Source: a virus. From it: a stretch of 37,686 nucleotides of DNA. Positions within the stretch are counted from its first letter, which is position 1. Every line of letters begins with the position of its first letter. The DNA lies in the IMG/VR virus record IMGVR_UViG_3300009537_000069, positions 1 through 37,686 of that record; one strand, written 5' to 3'. Position numbers and translations under genes: made by a program. Shown piece by piece: positions 6,077 to 34,319 of the stretch. The notes under the pieces are model-generated. The model saw only the letters and a program-made list of their open reading frames with translations, made no database searches and was not told the origin of the DNA.

Positions 6077-6104
6077 TTGACTGCTGGTTACTGTTTGCTA
6101 TAAT
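6077..6104 (+). promoter_or_regulatory. Promoter of the plus-strand chaperone operon
   Basis: TTGACT (6077-6082), 16 bp, TATAAT (6099-6104), with TGC directly before the -10 (extended -10). It is the best promoter on the plus strand and is followed at once by an intrinsic-terminator hairpin. Confidence 0.8.
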
Positions 6105-6134
6105 TAAAGCAAGCCAGACAATCGCAAAAAACTT

Positions 6135-6162
6135 AAAGCCCTCGAAGCAAGCGAGGGTTTTT
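6135..6162 (+). terminator. Leader terminator/attenuator whose 3' arm holds the ribosome binding site
   Basis: CCCTCG (6139-6144) pairs with CGAGGG (6152-6157), extended by AAAG to the T-run, and TTTTT follows (6158-6162). The 3' arm CGAGGG is also the only Shine-Dalgarno for the ATG at 6165, seven bases on. The same fold would both stop transcription and hide the ribosome site. Confidence 0.7.
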
Positions 6163-6767: not shown

Positions 6768-6951
6768 GACGATTGATGATGAAATTCGGGAAATCAAAGA
6801 GAGCATAGACCAGAGTGCCACCGCAGCTGCTATAGGTCTGGGTAGTAGTATCAACTCTGACCAGATTGAGACACTAATAGAACTTAAAATACAGGAAGCT
6901 GCACAAGCAGAGGAAGTCGAGGTAACAGATGCCACCCAAAACCCCAACTAG
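6760..6951 (+). CDS. Small acidic protein between groES and groEL, 63 aa
   Basis: ATG 6760 overlaps the end of groES; its own end overlaps the groEL start by 23 nt. Acidic, helical sequence (DDEIREIKESIDQSA, then LIELKIQEAAQAEEVEV). The tight packing inside the chaperonin pair suggests a partner or substrate adaptor, but no family is recognised. Confidence 0.7.
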   Translation: MGKTIDDEIREIKESIDQSATAAAIGLGSSINSDQIETLIELKIQEAAQAEEVEVTDATQNPN

Positions 6952-8539
6952 AACAGTAACATTTGGCGATGAAGCCAGAGAGAAAATACTAAAGGGTGCT
7001 GAGACTGTATATCAAGCAACCAAATCAACATACAGCCCACTTTCAGGTAATGTAGCAATCGAGAATCAATTTAACCAACGAACAACTGTGTCCCACGACG
7101 GCGTGACTGTCGCTCGTTCGATAACACTTGAAGACCCTATCGAAAACATAGGTGCTCGAATGTTGGTTGACGCAAGCATGAAAACTAACGACATGGCTGG
7201 TGACGGCACAACCGCCACTGTTATATTGGCTTATCACATTTTAGAATTAGCCAAGAAGCGTATAGCTGCTGGTTACAACCCTATGCTCATGCGAAAGGGT
7301 ATTGAAAAAGCAGCACTGGCAGCCAAAGAGCACATAGACAAAGTATCTCTCAAAGTAAATGAGAGTCAGCTTGAAGATGTAGCCACCGTTTCATCTGGCG
7401 ACTCAGAACTAGGCAAACTAATTGCCAGCACTATCGTTGACGTAGGTGTTAATGGTGGTGTGACCGTTGAGGACTATCAAGGTATTGGTATCGAATCTGA
7501 AATTGTTGAGGGTTTCTACTTCAGCAAGGGATATGCTTCACCATACTTTATGACTGACCCAGACGAAACAGCCAACCTTGAGAACTGCCAGGTCTTAATA
7601 GTAGAAGACAAAATCACAGCTATGGCTCAGATTGGTGAGCTGTTAGAGACAGTAGCAAACTCTGACAACCGCAAGCTGCTGATTATCGGCAATGTGTCTG
7701 GTCAAGCACTAGGACAACTGGTTATGAACAAGATGAAAGGTCTGATAGAAGTAGTTACTGTACCGCCTGCCACATTTGGTAGCCAAACACAAAACCACCT
7801 AGAAGACCTGGCTATTTTGACGGACGCTGAAGTTGTCTTAGCTGGCACACCAGCAAGCGAGATAAATACAGAGTTTCTGGGCATCGCAAATAATGTGGTT
7901 GTCACCAGGAATAGCACTACAATACTGGTAGACAAACAGCCAGAAGTACAAGAACGAATCAAAAAACTAAAGACTGGCATCAAAAAAGAGTCAGACCAAT
8001 TCAATAAAGACCACCTGAAAAATCGTCTGGCTATGCTAGAGGGTAAGATTGGTATTATCCGAGTCGGTGGTGAAAACGAAACCATAGCTCGTGAGAAAAA
8101 GATGCGAGTTGACGATGCTGTACATGCCACCCAAGCTGCTAGAGATTCTGGCATTGTACCTGGCGGTGCAACTGCCTTTGTCCATACAGCACAAGAGTTG
8201 ACTAAATCTACCCCTGTTGGCGACAGGGACTTCCAAGAGGGCTACAACATTGTCCTTGAATCGCTTAACGAACCATTCCTACAACTGATGGCTAACGCTG
8301 GTATGAAAGGTGAGTTTAACCTTGCAGCAGTCCAAGCAGCTGAGCCTGGCTATGGCTTCAACGTCCTAGCTAAGTCTGCCGAGGTAGTCAACCTGATGTC
8401 AGAGGGTGTAGTTGACCCAACGCTAGTAGTAAAACAAGTAATCGAGAATGGCTGTGCAGCAGCTGGTCTAGCTTTGACCAACAATGCCACCATTACATTC
8501 AACGATGACGGCGATACTGGTAGTCTTACTAACGCTTAA
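6929..8539 (+). CDS. groEL: Divergent GroEL-like chaperonin, 536 aa
   Basis: ATG 6929 after GAGG. Full-length group I chaperonin. The equatorial domain keeps HDGVTVAR (Asp52 equivalent), MAGDGTTAT (Asp87), MRVDDAVHATQAA (Asp398) and VVDPTLV (Asp495), plus GIVPGGAT. The apical domain keeps VEGFYFSKGYASPYF. The usual nucleotide loop T-L-G-P-K-G-R is replaced by TYSPLSGN, and Lys51 is His. The Gly-Gly-Met tail is missing. The protein probably folds phage structural proteins together with the neighbouring mini GroES. ATP chemistry may be altered but the catalytic aspartates are present. Confidence 0.95.
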   Translation: MPPKTPTRTVTFGDEAREKILKGAETVYQATKSTYSPLSGNVAIENQFNQRTTVSHDGVTVARSITLEDPIENIGARMLVDASMKTNDMAGDGTTATVILAYHILELAKKRIAAGYNPMLMRKGIEKAALAAKEHIDKVSLKVNESQLEDVATVSSGDSELGKLIASTIVDVGVNGGVTVEDYQGIGIESEIVEGFYFSKGYASPYFMTDPDETANLENCQVLIVEDKITAMAQIGELLETVANSDNRKLLIIGNVSGQALGQLVMNKMKGLIEVVTVPPATFGSQTQNHLEDLAILTDAEVVLAGTPASEINTEFLGIANNVVVTRNSTTILVDKQPEVQERIKKLKTGIKKESDQFNKDHLKNRLAMLEGKIGIIRVGGENETIAREKKMRVDDAVHATQAARDSGIVPGGATAFVHTAQELTKSTPVGDRDFQEGYNIVLESLNEPFLQLMANAGMKGEFNLAAVQAAEPGYGFNVLAKSAEVVNLMSEGVVDPTLVVKQVIENGCAAAGLALTNNATITFNDDGDTGSLTNA

Positions 8540-10305: not shown

Positions 10306-10329
10306 CACATTTTATACCCTGGCAAGACA

Positions 10330-10378
10330 TGCTATAATTAGATTGTTAGGAAGTCACCGTTTAGGCGGTGGCTTTTTT
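10330..10378 (+). ncRNA. Candidate ~40-nt small RNA: extended -10 promoter and terminator
   Basis: TGC-TATAAT (10330-10338) is followed after 12 bases by a hairpin: AAGTCACCG (10351-10359) with CGGTGGCTT (10366-10374), then TTTTTT (10373-10378). No gene lies downstream on the plus strand; the terminator abuts the stop of the opposing 54-aa gene. A transcript from about 10345 to 10378 would be almost all hairpin. Confidence 0.5.
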
Positions 10379-14799: not shown

Positions 14800-15684
14800 T
14801 TAGTACACCACCCTCAGTTGCCCTTTAGGTCTTTTAGGCTCAACCACCCTCACTGTTCCACCAGATGGCTTATCGCTAACCTTTAATGTACCGCCATATC
14901 CTGTTGATGGTGAAACAGACAGTTTTCCAGTGCTTTTTGTAAGTTTACCGCTAGTTTTCTGCGGATTGTAGGTTTTCGGCGAATAATTACCAGTAGGCTG
15001 TACGTTGTAGGTGCTTTGAGGATTGTAGGTGTTGCCCTGTTGACCAGTGTTACTAGTCACCCTAAGTGGACTGTTAAGTGCTGCCCAACCTGCATCATAA
15101 ATATCACCAGCCCTATCAGCATCAGCGTTAGCCTCGTCTATCAGCGAGTCAAAGCCTGCCTGTATGTTCTTCATCAATGCCTCTATCCAAGCGTTCTGGG
15201 CATTGGCTGCATTTGCCTGCCGTTGCTGTTCTTCCTGATAACGTGCGTAATCAAGTCGTTGCATCAATGCTGCCATCGTGTCTGTCTGACCCTGATAACC
15301 CAGCTGTCCCTGCATTGAAGCCTGACCCATAAGGTCTGACAAATTGGCACTAGACGTGCCGTAGATGCCACCGAGCTTGCCTAGACTACCTAGTAGTGGT
15401 GTCTTCTCTTTAGTCACCAGACCCTGACGCTGTGCTTCGGTTACGAGTGAGCCAGATGTCCGACCAGTTACTGATGGGTCTACTGCATCAATTAGAGTCT
15501 GAGTGTCATCGATGGCTTTTCTGTCGGCAGCTACACCAGCCCTAACGTCTGGAATACCAAGACTCTCAACCGCTGAATTATAATAATCAATAGGGCTGTT
15601 CTTGTTCTTGTAGTAATTAGTCAAGTCAGCCTGAGCTATCTTAGCTGTTGGATTGTTGACTAATTTGCTTAGGTCGTAGTCCAT
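14800..15684 (-). CDS. Internal virion protein candidate with C-terminal repeats, 294 aa
   Basis: Start chosen at ATG 15682-15684 (MDYDLSKLVNNPTAKIAQ) with AGGA upstream; the longer frame runs into the promoter-hairpin leader. Central helices rich in Gln/Ala (YARYQEEQQRQANAANAQNA). The C-terminus has TYNPQ repeats and then about five short units of the form G-(K/T/Q)-(L/V)-x-V (GKLSVS, GGTLKVS, GGTVRVV, KGQLRVV). Directly follows a late promoter and hairpin. Likely an ejection or tail-interior protein by position. Confidence 0.55.
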   Translation of the reverse strand: MDYDLSKLVNNPTAKIAQADLTNYYKNKNSPIDYYNSAVESLGIPDVRAGVAADRKAIDDTQTLIDAVDPSVTGRTSGSLVTEAQRQGLVTKEKTPLLGSLGKLGGIYGTSSANLSDLMGQASMQGQLGYQGQTDTMAALMQRLDYARYQEEQQRQANAANAQNAWIEALMKNIQAGFDSLIDEANADADRAGDIYDAGWAALNSPLRVTSNTGQQGNTYNPQSTYNVQPTGNYSPKTYNPQKTSGKLTKSTGKLSVSPSTGYGGTLKVSDKPSGGTVRVVEPKRPKGQLRVVY

Positions 15685-15701: not shown

Positions 15702-15773
15702 AAAAAATACCCATCAACTGTGAGCTGATGAGCTTCTGTCAGAAATTGTACTCTATTTGGCTGCAAAATGCAA
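15702..15773 (-). promoter_or_regulatory. Late promoter-hairpin module 1
   Basis: TTGCAT (15768-15773), 17 bp, TACAAT (15745-15750). The RNA then starts with AGAAGCTCATCA-loop-TGATGGG (about 15709-15735) and a T-run (15702-15707), an intrinsic-terminator shape just upstream of the 14800-15684 gene. Shares the GAAGCTC and AGCTCA cores with modules 2, 3 and 5. Confidence 0.7.
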
Positions 15774-17300: not shown

Positions 17301-19240
17301 TAAATTGCCTCACTTGCTAAGTCATCGAACAATAGTGAGTCCGATATTACTGTTGGGGTATTCGTAGCAGAGCCTACTAAGTCGTACCCTGTTTCTATCT
17401 CTTTGAATTTTCTATTTATGTGTAGGCTTGCTTCTGTTGCACCAGTCGTGCTGACAGTTGTGCCGTTTGTCCACGATGACGCTCTATCTAGTTTATATTT
17501 TGGTGTTACGGAACAACTCGCTGGTAGGCTCTCAAAAGTCATGCGATATTCAACGGACTCTTTGTCTTTCCAGGGTCTAGCATGGTCGAATATCAAATTT
17601 TCCATGCTTCCAGTAGCATAATAACCATTAGATTCTCTAACAACGTCAACGCCATAGCTTGTGGTAGCACCAGAGTCGGCACTATCACGCCAGGCAATAA
17701 ATAGGTTTGCACCGAATGATTTGACCATCGTGATACCGCTGATTGGTGCAGGTGGTGTGCCACTATCAGCTACAACTAAGCCAGTTCTGGTATGTGACGG
17801 AACGTGGTCATAGCCAAATGTTTCAGAGTAGTTCTTATCATGTGAACCCCAAGAAAATACACCATGCTTAATGTTCTCGTTGACTGTTTTATAAGGGAAG
17901 CCGAGCTGCATGACACCCTCGCTGATGTCGATGCCGTTGTAAGGTGCTTGTAGGTAAACATCTGCATCGTGGTCTGACGAGGTGAAGTCGTCAACACCTG
18001 GAAACGCTCTGACCAACACTGGTTGTCCACCAGCCCAAGCATAGGCTCGTCCGTTAGCAATGTAGTAGAGCACGTTCTTGGACGACGTTAGTGATTCTGG
18101 TGCACCCTCTGGGATAATAACGTACCAGTTATAGGTGGTTGAGATGCCGTCCCAGAAGAATATGATGCCCTCGGTAGCATCTTGTCCGAATTCACCGCCA
18201 TAGTCACTAGACTTTTTCTTATAGGCTGATATAGCCAGGTATTCGTCATAAACAGCCAGTCCATTAACCTCATAATTACTAGGGAACGTCAATCTGTGTG
18301 ATTCCCATTCAGATTTCAGTGGGTCATCAGACAATGCTTCCCAGACTGTCAAATATCTTTCATTACCAATACAAACGTACTGTAGAAATTCCTCGATTGG
18401 GTGATAATCGGCTGGTACTAACCGCTGTGCATAGGTTTCAACATTGGCATCTGAAAAGTCAGTCGTACAGTCCACTTTACCGTCAGCCACCGTTGAGTGG
18501 ATATGAAAGTGATAAGTTCGAGCATTAGGTTTGACCAACATTCTGATAGCAGTAGCAAATGTAAAGCTAACTAGTCCAGTGGACATATTGCCATTAGTTA
18601 TAGTCACTGTTCCAAGTGTATTATTAGCGTCATCGTGCATGGTAAGCGTCCAGTCGCCAGTGCCCACTGTGTCAACGTCTAGTTTGACGGTTATAAGTGG
18701 CTCAATGGTTGGCACATAACTGAGAACATGGGTCGCACCCTCATTTACGGCTGTTGTCAGGGTGTAGTCGGCGGTGGCAGTGACACCTGTGCTCTGGTCT
18801 AATATTGCACCAAATTTACTATTCTCAAACGTCGGCGTACCAGACATGTCTTTAATCTGGTGGACTACTAAGTTATCAACCGCTAGGATTGCATCTCTGT
18901 CGTGTTTATAAAGTAGAGACTTGGTTTTTACTATATCGGCGTGAGTGCTAAAGACAGACCAAGTGCCAGTGCCACCCTTAGCCTCTGGTGTTCGTTTATA
19001 AATCTCAGTCAGACCAGCTGCATAAATGTCGCCATTGTTGGGTTCACGAACAGCATCTGTTATCTCAGATGTGACGACACTAGCTGACTCTTTGACGGTC
19101 TTGTGTTTCAGCGTAACTTGGCTGGGTTTCTTGCGAAACTCGATTGATTGACCATAGGCAAAGCTGTTTTCTACGCCATGCTTCTTGTCGAAAGAATAGC
19201 CCCCAACTCGACTGGCGTTGCTTAATGCTCGTTTGCCCAT
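17300..19240 (-). CDS. Tail protein (hub/nozzle-like), 646 aa
   Basis: ATG 19238-19240. Long beta-rich protein without coiled coil or enzyme motif. Early KHDRDAILAVDNLVVHQIKD and later repeated Trp/Gly strands (ATEGIIFFWDGISTTYNWYV, YYIANGRAYAWAGG) suggest a propeller-like body. Its place right after the head-tail adaptor corresponds to the nozzle/tubular protein of short-tailed phages. Family not recognised with certainty. Confidence 0.6.
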   Translation of the reverse strand: MGKRALSNASRVGGYSFDKKHGVENSFAYGQSIEFRKKPSQVTLKHKTVKESASVVTSEITDAVREPNNGDIYAAGLTEIYKRTPEAKGGTGTWSVFSTHADIVKTKSLLYKHDRDAILAVDNLVVHQIKDMSGTPTFENSKFGAILDQSTGVTATADYTLTTAVNEGATHVLSYVPTIEPLITVKLDVDTVGTGDWTLTMHDDANNTLGTVTITNGNMSTGLVSFTFATAIRMLVKPNARTYHFHIHSTVADGKVDCTTDFSDANVETYAQRLVPADYHPIEEFLQYVCIGNERYLTVWEALSDDPLKSEWESHRLTFPSNYEVNGLAVYDEYLAISAYKKKSSDYGGEFGQDATEGIIFFWDGISTTYNWYVIIPEGAPESLTSSKNVLYYIANGRAYAWAGGQPVLVRAFPGVDDFTSSDHDADVYLQAPYNGIDISEGVMQLGFPYKTVNENIKHGVFSWGSHDKNYSETFGYDHVPSHTRTGLVVADSGTPPAPISGITMVKSFGANLFIAWRDSADSGATTSYGVDVVRESNGYYATGSMENLIFDHARPWKDKESVEYRMTFESLPASCSVTPKYKLDRASSWTNGTTVSTTGATEASLHINRKFKEIETGYDLVGSATNTPTVISDSLLFDDLASEAI

Positions 19241-20139
19241 TAGGTTACCTGATTCGGCTCTCTTGTGAATAGATTATTTTGTAGTCGTCGTCTGTTGCCT
19301 GGTATGTAGCCAGATACTGTCTTAGAGCTGTATTCTCTCTTGGCTCGTTCCAGTCCTAGCTTAAACTCGTTCATAAAGTCGGCTGCAATCTCTTTGTCTC
19401 TGCGACGCATGTAGTAGCGGTACAGCCCATAATCAGCTAGGTTGAGGTGAAAGTCCTCTGGTATGTTGGGTATCTCACCGATGGTATAGGCGAGGCTCGA
19501 ACCAGTTACGCCACCAAAGACGTTTTCAAGTTCAAGAGCAGTGGTGCTGGTGAAAGTATCAATCTTGTACCACAAAGCGTTCTGGTCAGCAGTGGTGGGT
19601 CTGAGATGTCGCCCAACCATGCCAGCCACAAACGTAGTTCCGTTGCCAGTGACTGTAGCATCACCATTGGTTAGGGTTATATCACCTGTTGTATAGTCAG
19701 CGACAGTGAGGTTGGGCACTCTTGCCTGATAAATCAATTCGCCAGCACCTGAGAGCGTACTAGCTGGTATTGGGTAGATGCCATACTCATCTTGACCCCT
19801 GATATAGAAGAACTCAGGGATAGTTGACGTTACTGTGTTTCTAGCATTAAGTTGATACCAGTCGTCGTCGTCAATGACCTGTTTAAGTGGATAGTCAATA
19901 CTGCCCACTGTCACAATAATCTTGTCGACTCGAATAGCATCTTCTGGCATCTGATAATACTGTTGGTCTGCTGTCGGACTAAATGTTTTACGCTCTAAAG
20001 AGAACTCACGCTTAAGAGCCGAGCGAAACCGATGTAGCCCCTGGTTGATACCTTTGTTAAACAGCGTGGTAGATGCAGTGCTAGTGTCACCGCCTGCCTG
20101 CTCTTGGCACTCTGCTAGTATTTCTGAGTATGTTAGCAT
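19240..20139 (-). CDS. Head-tail adaptor protein, 299 aa
   Basis: ATG 20137-20139 with AAAGGA. Helical start (MLTYSEILAECQEQAGG), LFNKGINQGLHRFRSALKRE, then YYQMPEDAIRVDKIIVTVG and an insert with ITLTNGDATVTGNG. The final part YGLYRYYMRRRDKEIAADF is typical of adaptor proteins that dock under the portal (P22 gp4/T7 gp11-like). Shares the one-base overlap with the tail protein. Confidence 0.72.
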   Translation of the reverse strand: MLTYSEILAECQEQAGGDTSTASTTLFNKGINQGLHRFRSALKREFSLERKTFSPTADQQYYQMPEDAIRVDKIIVTVGSIDYPLKQVIDDDDWYQLNARNTVTSTIPEFFYIRGQDEYGIYPIPASTLSGAGELIYQARVPNLTVADYTTGDITLTNGDATVTGNGTTFVAGMVGRHLRPTTADQNALWYKIDTFTSTTALELENVFGGVTGSSLAYTIGEIPNIPEDFHLNLADYGLYRYYMRRRDKEIAADFMNEFKLGLERAKREYSSKTVSGYIPGNRRRLQNNLFTREPNQVT

Positions 20140-20152
20140 TTTAATCCTTTAC

Positions 20153-20225
20153 AAAAAATAAGCCCACCAGCAATGAGCTGTTGAGCTTCTAACTTCATTT
20201 TATCATTTTGTAGATGGTTTGTCAT
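20153..20225 (-). promoter_or_regulatory. Late promoter-hairpin module 2
   Basis: ATGACA (20220-20225), 17 bp, TGA-TAAAAT (-10 20197-20202). A 12-bp hairpin with a TCATT loop follows (20160-20188, one mismatch), then six T's on the minus strand (20153-20158). It overlaps the end of the fibre gene region and precedes the adaptor gene. Confidence 0.75.
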
Positions 20226-22989: not shown

Positions 22990-23246
22990 GCGTAACTCGT
23001 TTCGTTCTTAGCTATTTTGGCGTAGGCATCTTTGTGCTTGGTCATCTTAGTCACGCCGTCATAGAGCAATAGAATCATGTCATAGGTCGCTGTAGGCTCG
23101 TCGTAGATGATATTACCGCTAAATGGGTCAACATAGGGTGTTTCTGACTTAGAAACATCAGCATGGGCAGTTTCAACCTTAGTAATACCACCATGTGCAG
23201 TCTCTGGCTTGGTCGTCTTAGTGTATGCGGTTTCGTTTTTAGCCAT
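22986..23246 (-). CDS. Small protein with decapeptide repeats, 86 aa
   Basis: Start ATG 23244-23246 after AAGGG; the longer frame runs into the leader hairpin. Units of the form K-x-E-T-(A/P)-(Y/H)-x-x-x-x repeat four times from residue 3 (KNETAYTKTT, KPETAHGGIT, KVETAHADVS, KSETPYVDPF), and a last KNETSYA ends the protein. Between lies a hydrophobic segment (TYDMILLLYDGVTK). Likely a virion or fibre-associated piece. No family recognised. Confidence 0.6.
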   Translation of the reverse strand: MAKNETAYTKTTKPETAHGGITKVETAHADVSKSETPYVDPFSGNIIYDEPTATYDMILLLYDGVTKMTKHKDAYAKIAKNETSYA

Positions 23247-23258
23247 TTTTCCCTTAAT

Positions 23259-23310
23259 TAAAAAACAACCCACAAAATGTGAGCTGCATTAGCTTCTAGC
23301 CCCTATTATA
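23259..23310 (-). promoter_or_regulatory. Late promoter-hairpin module 3
   Basis: Extended -10 TGG-TATAAT (23305-23310) with no good -35. Then GAAGCTAATG, a nine-pair hairpin (23266-23274 with 23278-23286) and a T-run (23259-23265), ahead of the 22986-23246 gene. Contains AGCTCACA. Confidence 0.7.
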
Positions 23311-23330
23311 CCAAGTTGTCTAGTTATTCG

Positions 23331-23849
23331 CTACTTTTTGGCTGGCTTGGGTGCTGACTTTTTGGTGACCTCTGGAAATTCTGCCTCAGTGGTTGGTTCT
23401 TCTGGCACTTCGACTGCTGGTTTAGCTGGTGCTGAGTCACTGGCTGCTGCCTGTTTCTTGTTCTCGGTCTGTTTCGCTTCTTTAGTTGGCTCTTTGTCTT
23501 CTTCTTGTACTTCTGGGACATCACTTGCCTTAGCAGACTTGAGTAGAGATGCCAAAGTCTTTTCATCTAGTTCTTGGTCATCACCTATCACGCTTTTGAC
23601 AAATGTTGTAGCTAGTTCTATTTCTGCGTCGGCGTTGTGAAGATTAGCTATCTGATTATTCTGTATGTGCCAAGCATCACACATCTTTTTGACATACAGT
23701 CGAGCTGCTGAGCCATGTAGGAGCTTCATCTGCCCTGCTTTGACCTCGTACTCACGTTCGCCACCCACCATGAAACGAAAGTCCGTCTTGGTAGGGTTGT
23801 GCACTATCACCTGGTCAGTGGTGTTAAATAAATTGAAGTGTTCTTTCAT
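23331..23849 (-). CDS. Virion-associated protein with Lys/Ala/Pro tail, 172 aa
   Basis: Start chosen at ATG 23847-23849 (MKEHFNLFNTTDQVIVHNPTK) after GGGGACATAG. N-terminal part is a small beta domain (FRFMVGGEREYEVKAGQMKL), then helices, and a low-complexity charged tail (residues about 115-172) rich in Ala, Lys, Glu and Pro. Has its own operator-bearing leader. Probably a head or tail completion factor by position; no family recognised. Confidence 0.6.
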   Translation of the reverse strand: MKEHFNLFNTTDQVIVHNPTKTDFRFMVGGEREYEVKAGQMKLLHGSAARLYVKKMCDAWHIQNNQIANLHNADAEIELATTFVKSVIGDDQELDEKTLASLLKSAKASDVPEVQEEDKEPTKEAKQTENKKQAAASDSAPAKPAVEVPEEPTTEAEFPEVTKKSAPKPAKK

Positions 23850-25761: not shown

Positions 25762-26826
25762 TTAAGCGGTTGTGATACCAGTTAGTTTACCTTGTCGACG
25801 AGGTTGGCTTGATGTGAAGTTTCCAAGCATGATGAGCTGAGCTACCTCTGCGTATTGAGCAGTAGGCATCTGGAACTCTTTAAGTTGGATTGGTTGAGAC
25901 TTTTTGCCCTCGGCATAAACACCATCAATGATGCTAACTGCTGGAACACTCTTTAAGTCTGCGTCTTTCAAGCTGTGCCAGTTTAGGTAGTTCTCGTTTA
26001 AGAACCACAGTGTCTGTGCATCTGCTTTCTCGTCTGCGACGATTGGTCGACCACGATATGACAAAGCGTTGAAGCCTTGCATACCTTTTAATGCGTCCTC
26101 GCCTCGCATCATCGCACCTGGCTTACTGTAACTAGTTACCATTGGGTAACCGTTGGCAGTGTAATTCGCCTGTACGGTTGGAGTAAGTAGAGACTCATAC
26201 AAGTCCCATACAGTTTCGTTAGATAGCCCCATTGTGAACGCTTGCTTGCTTGAAGAAGCAGCAGATACGCCACGAGCTAATCCAGCCATTAGAGCTAGAG
26301 TCAATGTACCACCAGAAGCAGTCACAGTAGCATTAAGAACACTATAAGTGGTTCTTGACAGCGTACCGTAGGTGCTTGTATCGGTTGTATCATCAACGAT
26401 ATTGCCTAGACCCTCAAAGTCGTCGCCAGTCCCTAGTCCGTAGAATAGAGTACCAACGCCATCGCACATTGAGTTCTTTGCAATCTCAAGGCTAGTTTTA
26501 ACGAGACTTAGTACCTGAGCAGAAGTCTTGTTGACCGCTTTCTCGATACCAGGAATGACTACCGATTGGTAATATCCCTTTGGTTCAAATGATAGTCTGC
26601 GTGTGTTGTTCTGAGCAGTGGTGTCGAATGTATCTACACCGCTGAATGAACCACCAGACGTACTCTTTGACACCTGTATAGGCTGTCGTAGAGTTTCACC
26701 TGACCAGCGTTTAGCACCTGCACCCAACATTCTTGCCATAAAAACATTGCTGTCCAAAATTTGGTCAACAATGGTAGGCACGAACTGGTCTTGCGTGATG
26801 CTTGTCACTCGTTCGTTAAAAATCAT
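25762..26826 (-). CDS. Major capsid protein, 354 aa
   Basis: ATG 26824-26826 with AAAGGA. Opens MIFNERVTSITQDQFVPTIVDQIL and has the beta/alpha pattern of HK97-fold capsid proteins: GETLRQPIQVSKSTSGGSF for the E-loop side, RRLSFEPKGYYQSVVIPGIE, the long helix DVGTLFYG region, and TLWFLNENYLNWHSLKD near the end. Follows the scaffold gene after a long non-coding stretch. Its own promoter-hairpin module (26865-26938) would allow high expression. Confidence 0.85.
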   Translation of the reverse strand: MIFNERVTSITQDQFVPTIVDQILDSNVFMARMLGAGAKRWSGETLRQPIQVSKSTSGGSFSGVDTFDTTAQNNTRRLSFEPKGYYQSVVIPGIEKAVNKTSAQVLSLVKTSLEIAKNSMCDGVGTLFYGLGTGDDFEGLGNIVDDTTDTSTYGTLSRTTYSVLNATVTASGGTLTLALMAGLARGVSAASSSKQAFTMGLSNETVWDLYESLLTPTVQANYTANGYPMVTSYSKPGAMMRGEDALKGMQGFNALSYRGRPIVADEKADAQTLWFLNENYLNWHSLKDADLKSVPAVSIIDGVYAEGKKSQPIQLKEFQMPTAQYAEVAQLIMLGNFTSSQPRRQGKLTGITTA

Positions 26827-26864
26827 ACGTTTTGTCCTTTCGTGTGATTTTATTACTTTATATT

Positions 26865-26938
26865 AAAAAAGACCGCCAACTCGTTTGAGTCGTCGGACTT
26901 CTAAAATCTAATATAGCACACTGTACTCACTTTGTAAA
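26865..26938 (-). promoter_or_regulatory. Late promoter-hairpin module 4 (major capsid)
   Basis: TTTACA (26933-26938), 17 bp, TGC-TATATT (-10 26910-26915). Then AGAAGTCCGACGACTC-AAAC-GAGTTGGCGGTCTT (26869-26900), a strong hairpin with two mismatches, followed by T's (26865-26870). It is also the 3' boundary of the upstream structured stretch. Confidence 0.8.
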
Positions 26939-26940
26939 TA

Positions 26941-27408
26941 ACAGCCTGGACGTAACAGGCAAGGATTTCCCTTTGTCACCTTGCAGAGTCGTCACCAGTG
27001 TCCTGTGTTCTTAAGAGACACAGCACCCCATTGGGGGGTTCAGAATCACCACTTGCGGTTACTTTCGCCGTCACACATGTCCACCAGGGCTAGTGTGGGG
27101 CAGGACTTTTTCGCCACTGCTACGTTCAGCCTACTATTTGTTAATGAGCTAGTAGTAGGAAGCGTGCGTTTCAGTCTCACTTAGCGACGTTGCTTCACTG
27201 AGTTATCCGACAAGGTATTGGTCAGTCCCATACCCTCAGACTAAGCTAATTAACGACCTAGTTTGCTCAATGTATGATGCTCCCTACTATCAGCCCACTA
27301 TTTATCAAAGTGCGAGGCTCAAGGTGAATGTTGTGTTCGACCTAATAATATACAGAGCCTCGCTATCCCAAATAGGTACACAAATCTGTTATATACCCTA
27401 TCTAAGTA
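26941..27408 (-). ncRNA. Candidate large structured RNA between scaffold and capsid genes
   Basis: About 470 bases with no credible gene on the transcribed (minus) strand, in a genome otherwise packed with overlapping genes. Many self-contained helices can be read: GCGAGGCTC/GAGCCTCGC (27312-27320 with 27355-27363) with an inner AGGT-GAA/TTC-ACCT stem; 27212-27221 with 27227-27236; CCTACTA/TAGTAGG (27130-27136 with 27153-27159); CACAC/GTGTG (27072-27076 with 27093-27097); ACCCC/GGGGT (27025-27039); CTGTGT/ACACAG (27003-27023); GCAAGG/CCTTGC (26959-26984); GCCTG/CAGGC (26944-26960). Read-through from the scaffold gene would make it and the hairpin at 26869 would end it. Not tmRNA, RNase P or tRNA by motif. 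Known large phage-borne RNAs such as GOLLD and ROOL are a precedent; identity is unproven. Confidence 0.55.
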
Positions 27409-27410
27409 TA

Positions 27411-28229
27411 CTACTCGTCAAACTCTTGTTCAATGATGTCGTCCATGCTCATGCCTTTGATGACTCGTGGTCTGCTGTCGCCATCGCCACCACCCTCAGC
27501 ACCAGAGGCTGCACTAGCCCTAGCTTTGCGACGACCTTTAATCTCTTTTTTGCGTTCTTCAGTGATAGAACCAGCACCCTTGAGCTTGAAAGCAGTCTCG
27601 AATGACCATATCTGCTTATTAGGATTGTCGGCATACTTCTCGTTGTTCTTAGCCATAAATTCAAAGACTTCTTTGGTAGCAGTCTCAAGTTCTTTCTCGT
27701 CTTTAGGTAGGTCACCAGACTTCTGTAGTTCACCAATCTCGTTCTGCCAGCCCTGGTCGACACTAGCTACTTCTCGCTTAAATTCTTCTTGGCTTTCGGT
27801 CAGAGCTAGGTTCTCTTTGTTGACTTCGCCACGAATAACGTCGACAACATCTTGTACCATGCCTTTCCAAGATGTAGGCTTGTAATCATCAGGTATAGCG
27901 TCCATTCCCACCTCTGTTAGCTTGGTCTTATCGAGTGGTTCAGGTTCTTCTTCCTCGTCCTCTACTTCTTCGTCTTCATCTTCATCGGATTCACCGTCTT
28001 CGTCGGATTCTTCACCCTCTGCGTCAGCATCTGCATCATCATCTTTGTCCGAGACGGAGTCGTCAGATTTGTCGTCTTTATCGTCTTCATCGTCGCCTCT
28101 TTCCTCGGCTTCTTCAACTTCAGCCTCTTTATCTATTATATCGTCCATTGTTTCTGGCTCTTTAGTGTCTTTTTCGTCAGCATCGTCTGCTGCACCATCG
28201 GTATTAGTTGCGTCAATGTCATCTGCCAT
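27411..28229 (-). CDS. Capsid scaffolding protein, 272 aa
   Basis: ATG 28227-28229 after GAGGGG. The first about 100 residues are almost wholly Asp/Glu/Ser (long acidic runs with DEDGESDEDEDEEVEDEEEE), then a helical region (KEELE...VFEFMAKNNEKY), a Lys/Arg-rich segment (ERKKEIKGRRKARASAA) and an acidic end (DDIIEQEFDE). Acidic, helical, directly before the capsid gene: the standard picture of a scaffold. The basic C-terminal patch would bind the coat protein. Confidence 0.85.
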   Translation of the reverse strand: MADDIDATNTDGAADDADEKDTKEPETMDDIIDKEAEVEEAEERGDDEDDKDDKSDDSVSDKDDDADADAEGEESDEDGESDEDEDEEVEDEEEEPEPLDKTKLTEVGMDAIPDDYKPTSWKGMVQDVVDVIRGEVNKENLALTESQEEFKREVASVDQGWQNEIGELQKSGDLPKDEKELETATKEVFEFMAKNNEKYADNPNKQIWSFETAFKLKGAGSITEERKKEIKGRRKARASAASGAEGGGDGDSRPRVIKGMSMDDIIEQEFDE

Positions 28230-34252: not shown

Positions 34253-34319
34253 AACTCGACAACTGTGAGCTGACGAGCTTCTGGTCTTAATTATACTGCT
34301 AAAGCACCTGAAATTGCAA
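34253..34319 (-). promoter_or_regulatory. Late promoter-hairpin module 5 (portal)
   Basis: TTGCAA (34314-34319), 18 bp, TATAAT (34290-34295), then AGAAGCTCGTCAGC-TCACA-GTTGTCGAG (hairpin 34255-34277, one mismatch) and T's (34246-34252). Shares the AGAAGCTC and AGCTCACAG cores with module 1. Confidence 0.75.

Follow-up and report, generated by a model that had tools for sequence, protein, structure and literature searches.

What lies between the genes for the scaffold-like protein and the major capsid protein of this virus? The window analyzed here is the whole virus record of 37,686 bases, in which the late genes lie on the minus strand. These include the genes for the terminase large subunit, the portal, a 1307-amino acid protein, the scaffold-like protein and the major capsid protein. 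The last two are separated by 584 bases (26827-27410, minus strand).

27411-28229, minus strand: scaffold-like gene, encoding an acidic protein of 272 amino acids; assigned from the open reading frame and its position ahead of the capsid gene
25762-26826, minus strand: major capsid protein gene (phrog_9953, E = 4e-54)

The scaffold-capsid gap carries no convincing gene

A preliminary description of this DNA placed about 470 bases without a gene on the transcribed strand at this site and proposed that they encode a large structured RNA. We observed that the longest open reading frame on the transcribed strand of the gap is 44 amino acids, in agreement with that description. A translated small gene would have spoken against an RNA. 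Searching the gap by tblastn with 458 queries (proteins and small open reading frames of relatives) returned nothing convincing (best E = 0.002, over 27 amino acids). Open reading frames of 67 and 111 amino acids on the plus strand were judged to be antisense artefacts. The scaffold-like protein itself had no PHROG or Pfam match.

We delimited a candidate transcript by two sequence features, a promoter-like site at the upstream end and the U-run of the capsid leader at the downstream end.

27405-27433, minus strand: promoter-like site TTGAAC-17-TATACT, weak, within the end of the scaffold-like gene
26864-27398, minus strand: putative noncoding RNA of about 530-535 nt, starting at the promoter-like site and ending at the capsid-leader U-run

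From this promoter-like site, transcription of the RNA could begin at about 27398. The site has 9 of 12 consensus matches, and matches of such quality are common.

The gap is predicted to fold into a two-arm RNA

The minus strand of the gap had a minimum free energy of −185.7 kcal/mol (z = −4.3; 0 of 100 shuffles as good), to be read beside the z of −4 to −6 reached by 470-nt windows in neighboring structural genes on the same strand. Fold energy alone is therefore weak evidence in this genome. The plus strand of the gap had a fold z of −2.6. The main predicted elements were as follows.

27398-27389/27383-27374, minus strand: P1, a 10-bp hairpin at the 5' end (mean pair probability 0.96)
27363-27355/27320-27312, minus strand: P2, a 9-bp hairpin formed by GCGAGGCUC and GAGCCUCGC, with inner AGGU/ACCU (mean pair probability 0.97)
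26929-27311, minus strand: two-arm domain, with the closing helix ACUUUG/CAAAGU at 27311-27306/26934-26929 (mean pair probability 0.78)
27142-27300, minus strand: arm A, with the helix 27300-27279/27163-27142 (pair probability 0.96-1.00)
26936-27139, minus strand: arm B, with the helix 27139-27118/26957-26936 (pair probability 0.87-0.98)

Read from 5' to 3', the order is P1, P2 and the closing helix around arms A and B, followed by the capsid promoter and leader; several smaller helices accompany these elements. The arm A helix is paired at 21 of its 22 positions, the exception being an A.C mismatch at 27290/27152. Its score of 40 was above the maximum of 37 in 60 shuffles and above the 32.5 reached by the top-scoring window among 78 others from this genome. 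The proposal of a structured stretch was thus upheld by the fold (z = −4.3) and by an arm A helix that neither the 60 shuffles nor the 78 other windows equalled. These data make it plausible that the gap encodes a large structured RNA.

The two arms look duplicated

An ungapped 33-nt repeat, offset by 164 and equalled by 1 of 300 shuffles, is common to arms A and B; a repeat copy lies at the base of each arm.

27284-27303, minus strand: repeat copy 1, AAATAGTGGGCTGATAGTAG, at the base of arm A
27120-27139, minus strand: repeat copy 2, AAATAGTAGGCTGAACGTAG, at the base of arm B

Across 19 aligned positions of the two arms, 17 were paired in both, and at 4 of these both bases had changed. The arm B helix has an A.C mismatch at 27126/26949 that matches the one in arm A. 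Because a common repeat, an identical mismatch and compensating changes coincide, arms A and B look like duplicated RNA arms with compensating differences. A pattern derived from the repeat copies (AAATAGTNGGCTGANNGTAG) was present exactly at both sites and was absent elsewhere in the window even at three mismatches.

No homologue was found in the collections searched

GOLLD and ROOL had been cited as precedents for the putative RNA, with a new member or a new class in mind. Rfam gave no gathering-score match in the window. At E ≤ 10 with permissive filters, the region 26700-27600 returned nothing credible or above chance for ROOL, GOLLD, OLE, HEARO or introns. Membership in GOLLD, ROOL, OLE or HEARO was therefore not borne out at either threshold. 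No tRNA genes were found within the 37.7-kb window.

Searches by sequence gave a similar picture. The stretch had short chance matches only in a blastn search against phages and plasmids, and matches of 14-37 nt only in about 80 related virus records, searched whole, and 380 Patescibacteria-type genomes, all from the phylum to which G031 belongs. Scanning IMG/VR with AAATAGTNGGCTGANNGTAG gave one match (L027), which lies within a coding region and was judged a chance match. A two-copy gapped pattern matched a minisatellite (L128) and was rejected, and a scan with two distal motifs had zero matches. The predicted RNA is an orphan within the searched phages, plasmids, virus records and genomes, from which near relatives may be missing. 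With no homologue found, compensation is seen only between the two internal arms.

We compared the site in relatives defined by the capsid protein, which is 41-54% identical over A1. In these, scaffold and capsid are separated by a short gap or by small genes. Loss from close relatives had been named as an argument against the RNA. Indeed, none of the relatives examined has the stretch at this site, but at no more than 54% identity in the capsid protein these are not close. In L036, the nearest relative found, the portal is 75% identical; this 4-kb fragment does not extend to the scaffold-capsid region. Small lysine-rich proteins of 45-58 amino acids are encoded in some relatives (L001, 5782-5919; L005, 4610-4786) at the site where the window has the putative RNA.

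Relative G006 carries a 772-nt noncoding stretch on the late strand (L135, 8844-9615, minus strand) with a z of −8.9 and several long helices; it belongs to no Rfam family. The sequences are unrelated, and it was rejected as a homologue of the window RNA. Its presence makes large structured RNAs in this phage group more believable. In two further records, an identical 21-nt segment containing AGGTTTTCCCCTCCTTGCCT lies in hairpins with different flanking stems (L130, 13623-13643, and L131, 5946-5966, plus strand); this hairpin is absent from the window. The sole cellular relative of the capsid protein is on a contig of 3.9 kb from a Candidatus Berkelbacteria MAG (L121), which could be a binning error. 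This contig weakly hints at a Patescibacteria-type host.

These comparisons bear on whether the stretch could be a non-functional insertion or a decayed gene, that is, a remnant with fortuitous structure. The small open reading frames that relatives carry at the scaffold-capsid site would suit a decayed gene, as would the equally low fold energies in coding DNA of this genome. However, the small proteins of the relatives have no convincing tblastn similarity to the stretch, and neither a 22-position helix above all shuffles nor duplicated arms that compensate each other would be expected of a remnant. We regard decay as unlikely, though worth keeping in view.

A promoter-terminator leader is conserved ahead of the capsid gene

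The capsid gene is preceded by its own promoter and by a short leader.

26910-26938, minus strand: capsid promoter TTTACA-17-TATATT with TG ahead of the -10; 10 of 12 matches; same place in relatives
26864-26909, minus strand: capsid leader, in which an AGUC-CGAC-GACU hairpin at about 26899-26888 overlaps the terminator at 26901-26868 and its U-run; −16.0 kcal/mol

The preliminary description had the structured stretch ending exactly at a promoter-terminator module. Both the promoter (26938-26910) and the terminator (26901-26868) are present, but the module is separate from the RNA and is conserved where the RNA is absent.

Of 69 distinct regions upstream of the capsid genes in L001-L116, at least 46 have a sigma-70-type promoter followed by an intrinsic terminator immediately ahead of the gene; shuffles give an expectation of 0.1. 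The terminator mostly lies 15-22 nt past the -10. Several of the remaining regions have the same layout by eye, with a weaker match.

Between the start site and the terminator, the relatives have a hairpin of 3-5 bp, the 3' strand of which is the first part of the terminator 5' strand. Its pairs include GGC/GCC, GGT/ACC, GTC/GAC, GAC/GTC, GGAT/ATCC, GCTT/AAGC, CGC/GCG and others. The two strands covary: each phage's own pairing scored 8.37, compared to 6.00 after stems were swapped between phages (0 of 1000 swaps as good), a comparison in which related phages are not independent yet many different pair types occur. The covariation held without the common GGC/GCC group. The terminator is the stronger structure by about 10 kcal/mol, so that an antiterminator role for the mini-hairpin would require a partner. 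We infer from these sequence patterns that the promoter-hairpin-terminator module is an attenuator of late genes. This putative attenuator is a better-supported discovery than the large RNA.

The leader module recurs ahead of other late genes

The motif AGAAGCT-N-AGCTC has four exact occurrences in the window, compared to 0.02 expected. Each lies between a promoter-like site and a terminator, ahead of a late gene.

34253-34319, minus strand: paralogous module with an AGCU/AGCU hairpin; promoter and terminator ahead of the portal gene (start 34231)
23266-23334, minus strand: paralogous module ahead of a gene starting near 23246
20160-20225, minus strand: paralogous module ahead of the gene 19240-20139
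15705-15773, minus strand: paralogous module TTGCAT-17-TACAAT, AGAAGCTCATCAGCTC and terminator, ahead of a gene starting near 15683

The capsid leader is a fifth unit, where AGTC/GACT replaces AGCT/AGCT. In the leaders of the window, the first AGCU can also join the terminator stem, and the two structures are less cleanly separate than in relatives. More than one such unit was also present in each of the relatives G002, G008 and G024. By its sequence layout, the set of five units looks like a late-gene attenuation regulon.

A similar arrangement occurs on the plus strand.

10311-10374, plus strand: similar promoter-terminator unit, with TGCTATAATTAGATTGTTAGGAAGTCACC; no gene is evident downstream of it on the same strand

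An RNA made from this unit would be about 40 nt long. Another promoter-terminator pair (6077-6161) lies ahead of a gene for a GroEL-type chaperonin (phrog_5725; 6929-8539, plus strand).

A long capsid leader is an unlikely alternative

Two hairpins at the 3' side of the stretch, 26944-26960 and 26959-26984, had been thought to overlap and possibly to switch. They have only two bases in common, and the competition lies elsewhere. Hairpin 26960-26944 competes with arm B (27125-27118/26957-26950). Arm B is favored in this competition, and the hairpin is terminator-like yet lacks a real U-run (TGTTATTT).

This competition is central to a reading in which the stretch acts in cis, as an extended 5' leader of the capsid gene, with arm B and hairpin 26960-26944 together tuning read-through from scaffold to capsid. 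In its favor, the stretch directly adjoins the capsid leader, and the terminator-like hairpin competes with arm B. Forcing that hairpin costs 4.7 kcal/mol, however, and relatives regulate the capsid gene by the short leader alone. The capsid gene's own promoter also lies downstream of the stretch, so that the gene does not depend on the RNA. A cis-acting leader of this length is improbable.

Proposed origin and release of the RNA

A remnant or divergent mobile ribozyme between genes (group I or II intron, or HEARO-type RNA) would suit an ornate fold found sporadically, at one site in one lineage, but it is highly improbable given that the permissive Rfam search had no credible intron or HEARO match and that the stretch interrupts no gene and carries no open reading frame.

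Our preferred reading, which we hold with roughly even confidence, is that this phage lineage acquired, between the scaffold and capsid genes, a noncoding structured RNA of about 530 nt that is expressed late. Its transcription would start at the weak promoter (27433-27405) or continue out of the scaffold gene by read-through. The RNA would then fold into the P1 and P2 hairpins and a closed domain that holds the two long, duplicated arms. With the leader switch off, the terminator at 26901-26868 would release a free RNA of about 530 nt; with the switch on, through antitermination, the same RNA would form the 5' part of the capsid mRNA. The chances that the RNA is made, stable and functional appear balanced.

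The most likely role, suggested tentatively, is that of a stand-alone structural RNA, one that would work like ROOL or GOLLD while being neither. For a role in capsid assembly or packaging, the position of the RNA is the only pointer. More speculatively, the RNA could represent a new class of large RNA (two duplicated arms, late, released at the capsid-leader terminator) coupled to a family-wide attenuation by promoter, mini-antiterminator and terminator; we offer this combined proposal tentatively and think it doubtful.

Few large RNAs have been described in phages, and what they do is open; an orphan in a late operon with duplicated arms would enlarge the set. The leader module matters more than the RNA. 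If promoter, covarying mini-hairpin and terminator stand at the head of the late operons of this family, one antitermination factor could activate the whole virion programme.

Comparison with known systems

ROOL RNAs are ornate, occur in phages and prophages and have no known protein partner; ROOL env-120 is 659 nt long (PMC12286853). ROOL often lies near tRNA islands, which are also the usual setting of GOLLD, and GOLLD increases during lysis (PMC12286853). The window RNA, known here from sequence and predicted fold, is likewise large, ornate and phage-borne. It differs from ROOL in having neither a covariance-model match nor a tRNA gene in the 37.7-kb window. With GOLLD it would have in common that it is a large phage-borne RNA, and the window stretch sits among late genes. 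Unlike GOLLD, however, it has no model match and no tRNA island, and it falls below the 800+ nt of many GOLLDs.

The leader module has two counterparts. In the late control of phage lambda (pR'-tR'), a promoter is closely followed by a terminator ahead of the late genes, which implies control by antitermination. The module of the window likewise has a promoter and then a terminator ahead of late genes. It differs in that the phage's own unit is repeated ahead of several late genes and has a covarying mini-hairpin that overlaps the terminator stem. RAT antiterminators of the BglG/LicT type are small hairpins of about 30 nt that use the 5' part of a terminator stem. The module hairpin draws on the corresponding part of its terminator stem and, like RAT, is too weak to win unaided, but it has 3-5 bp, compared to about 30 nt for RAT, and it sits ahead of phage late genes.
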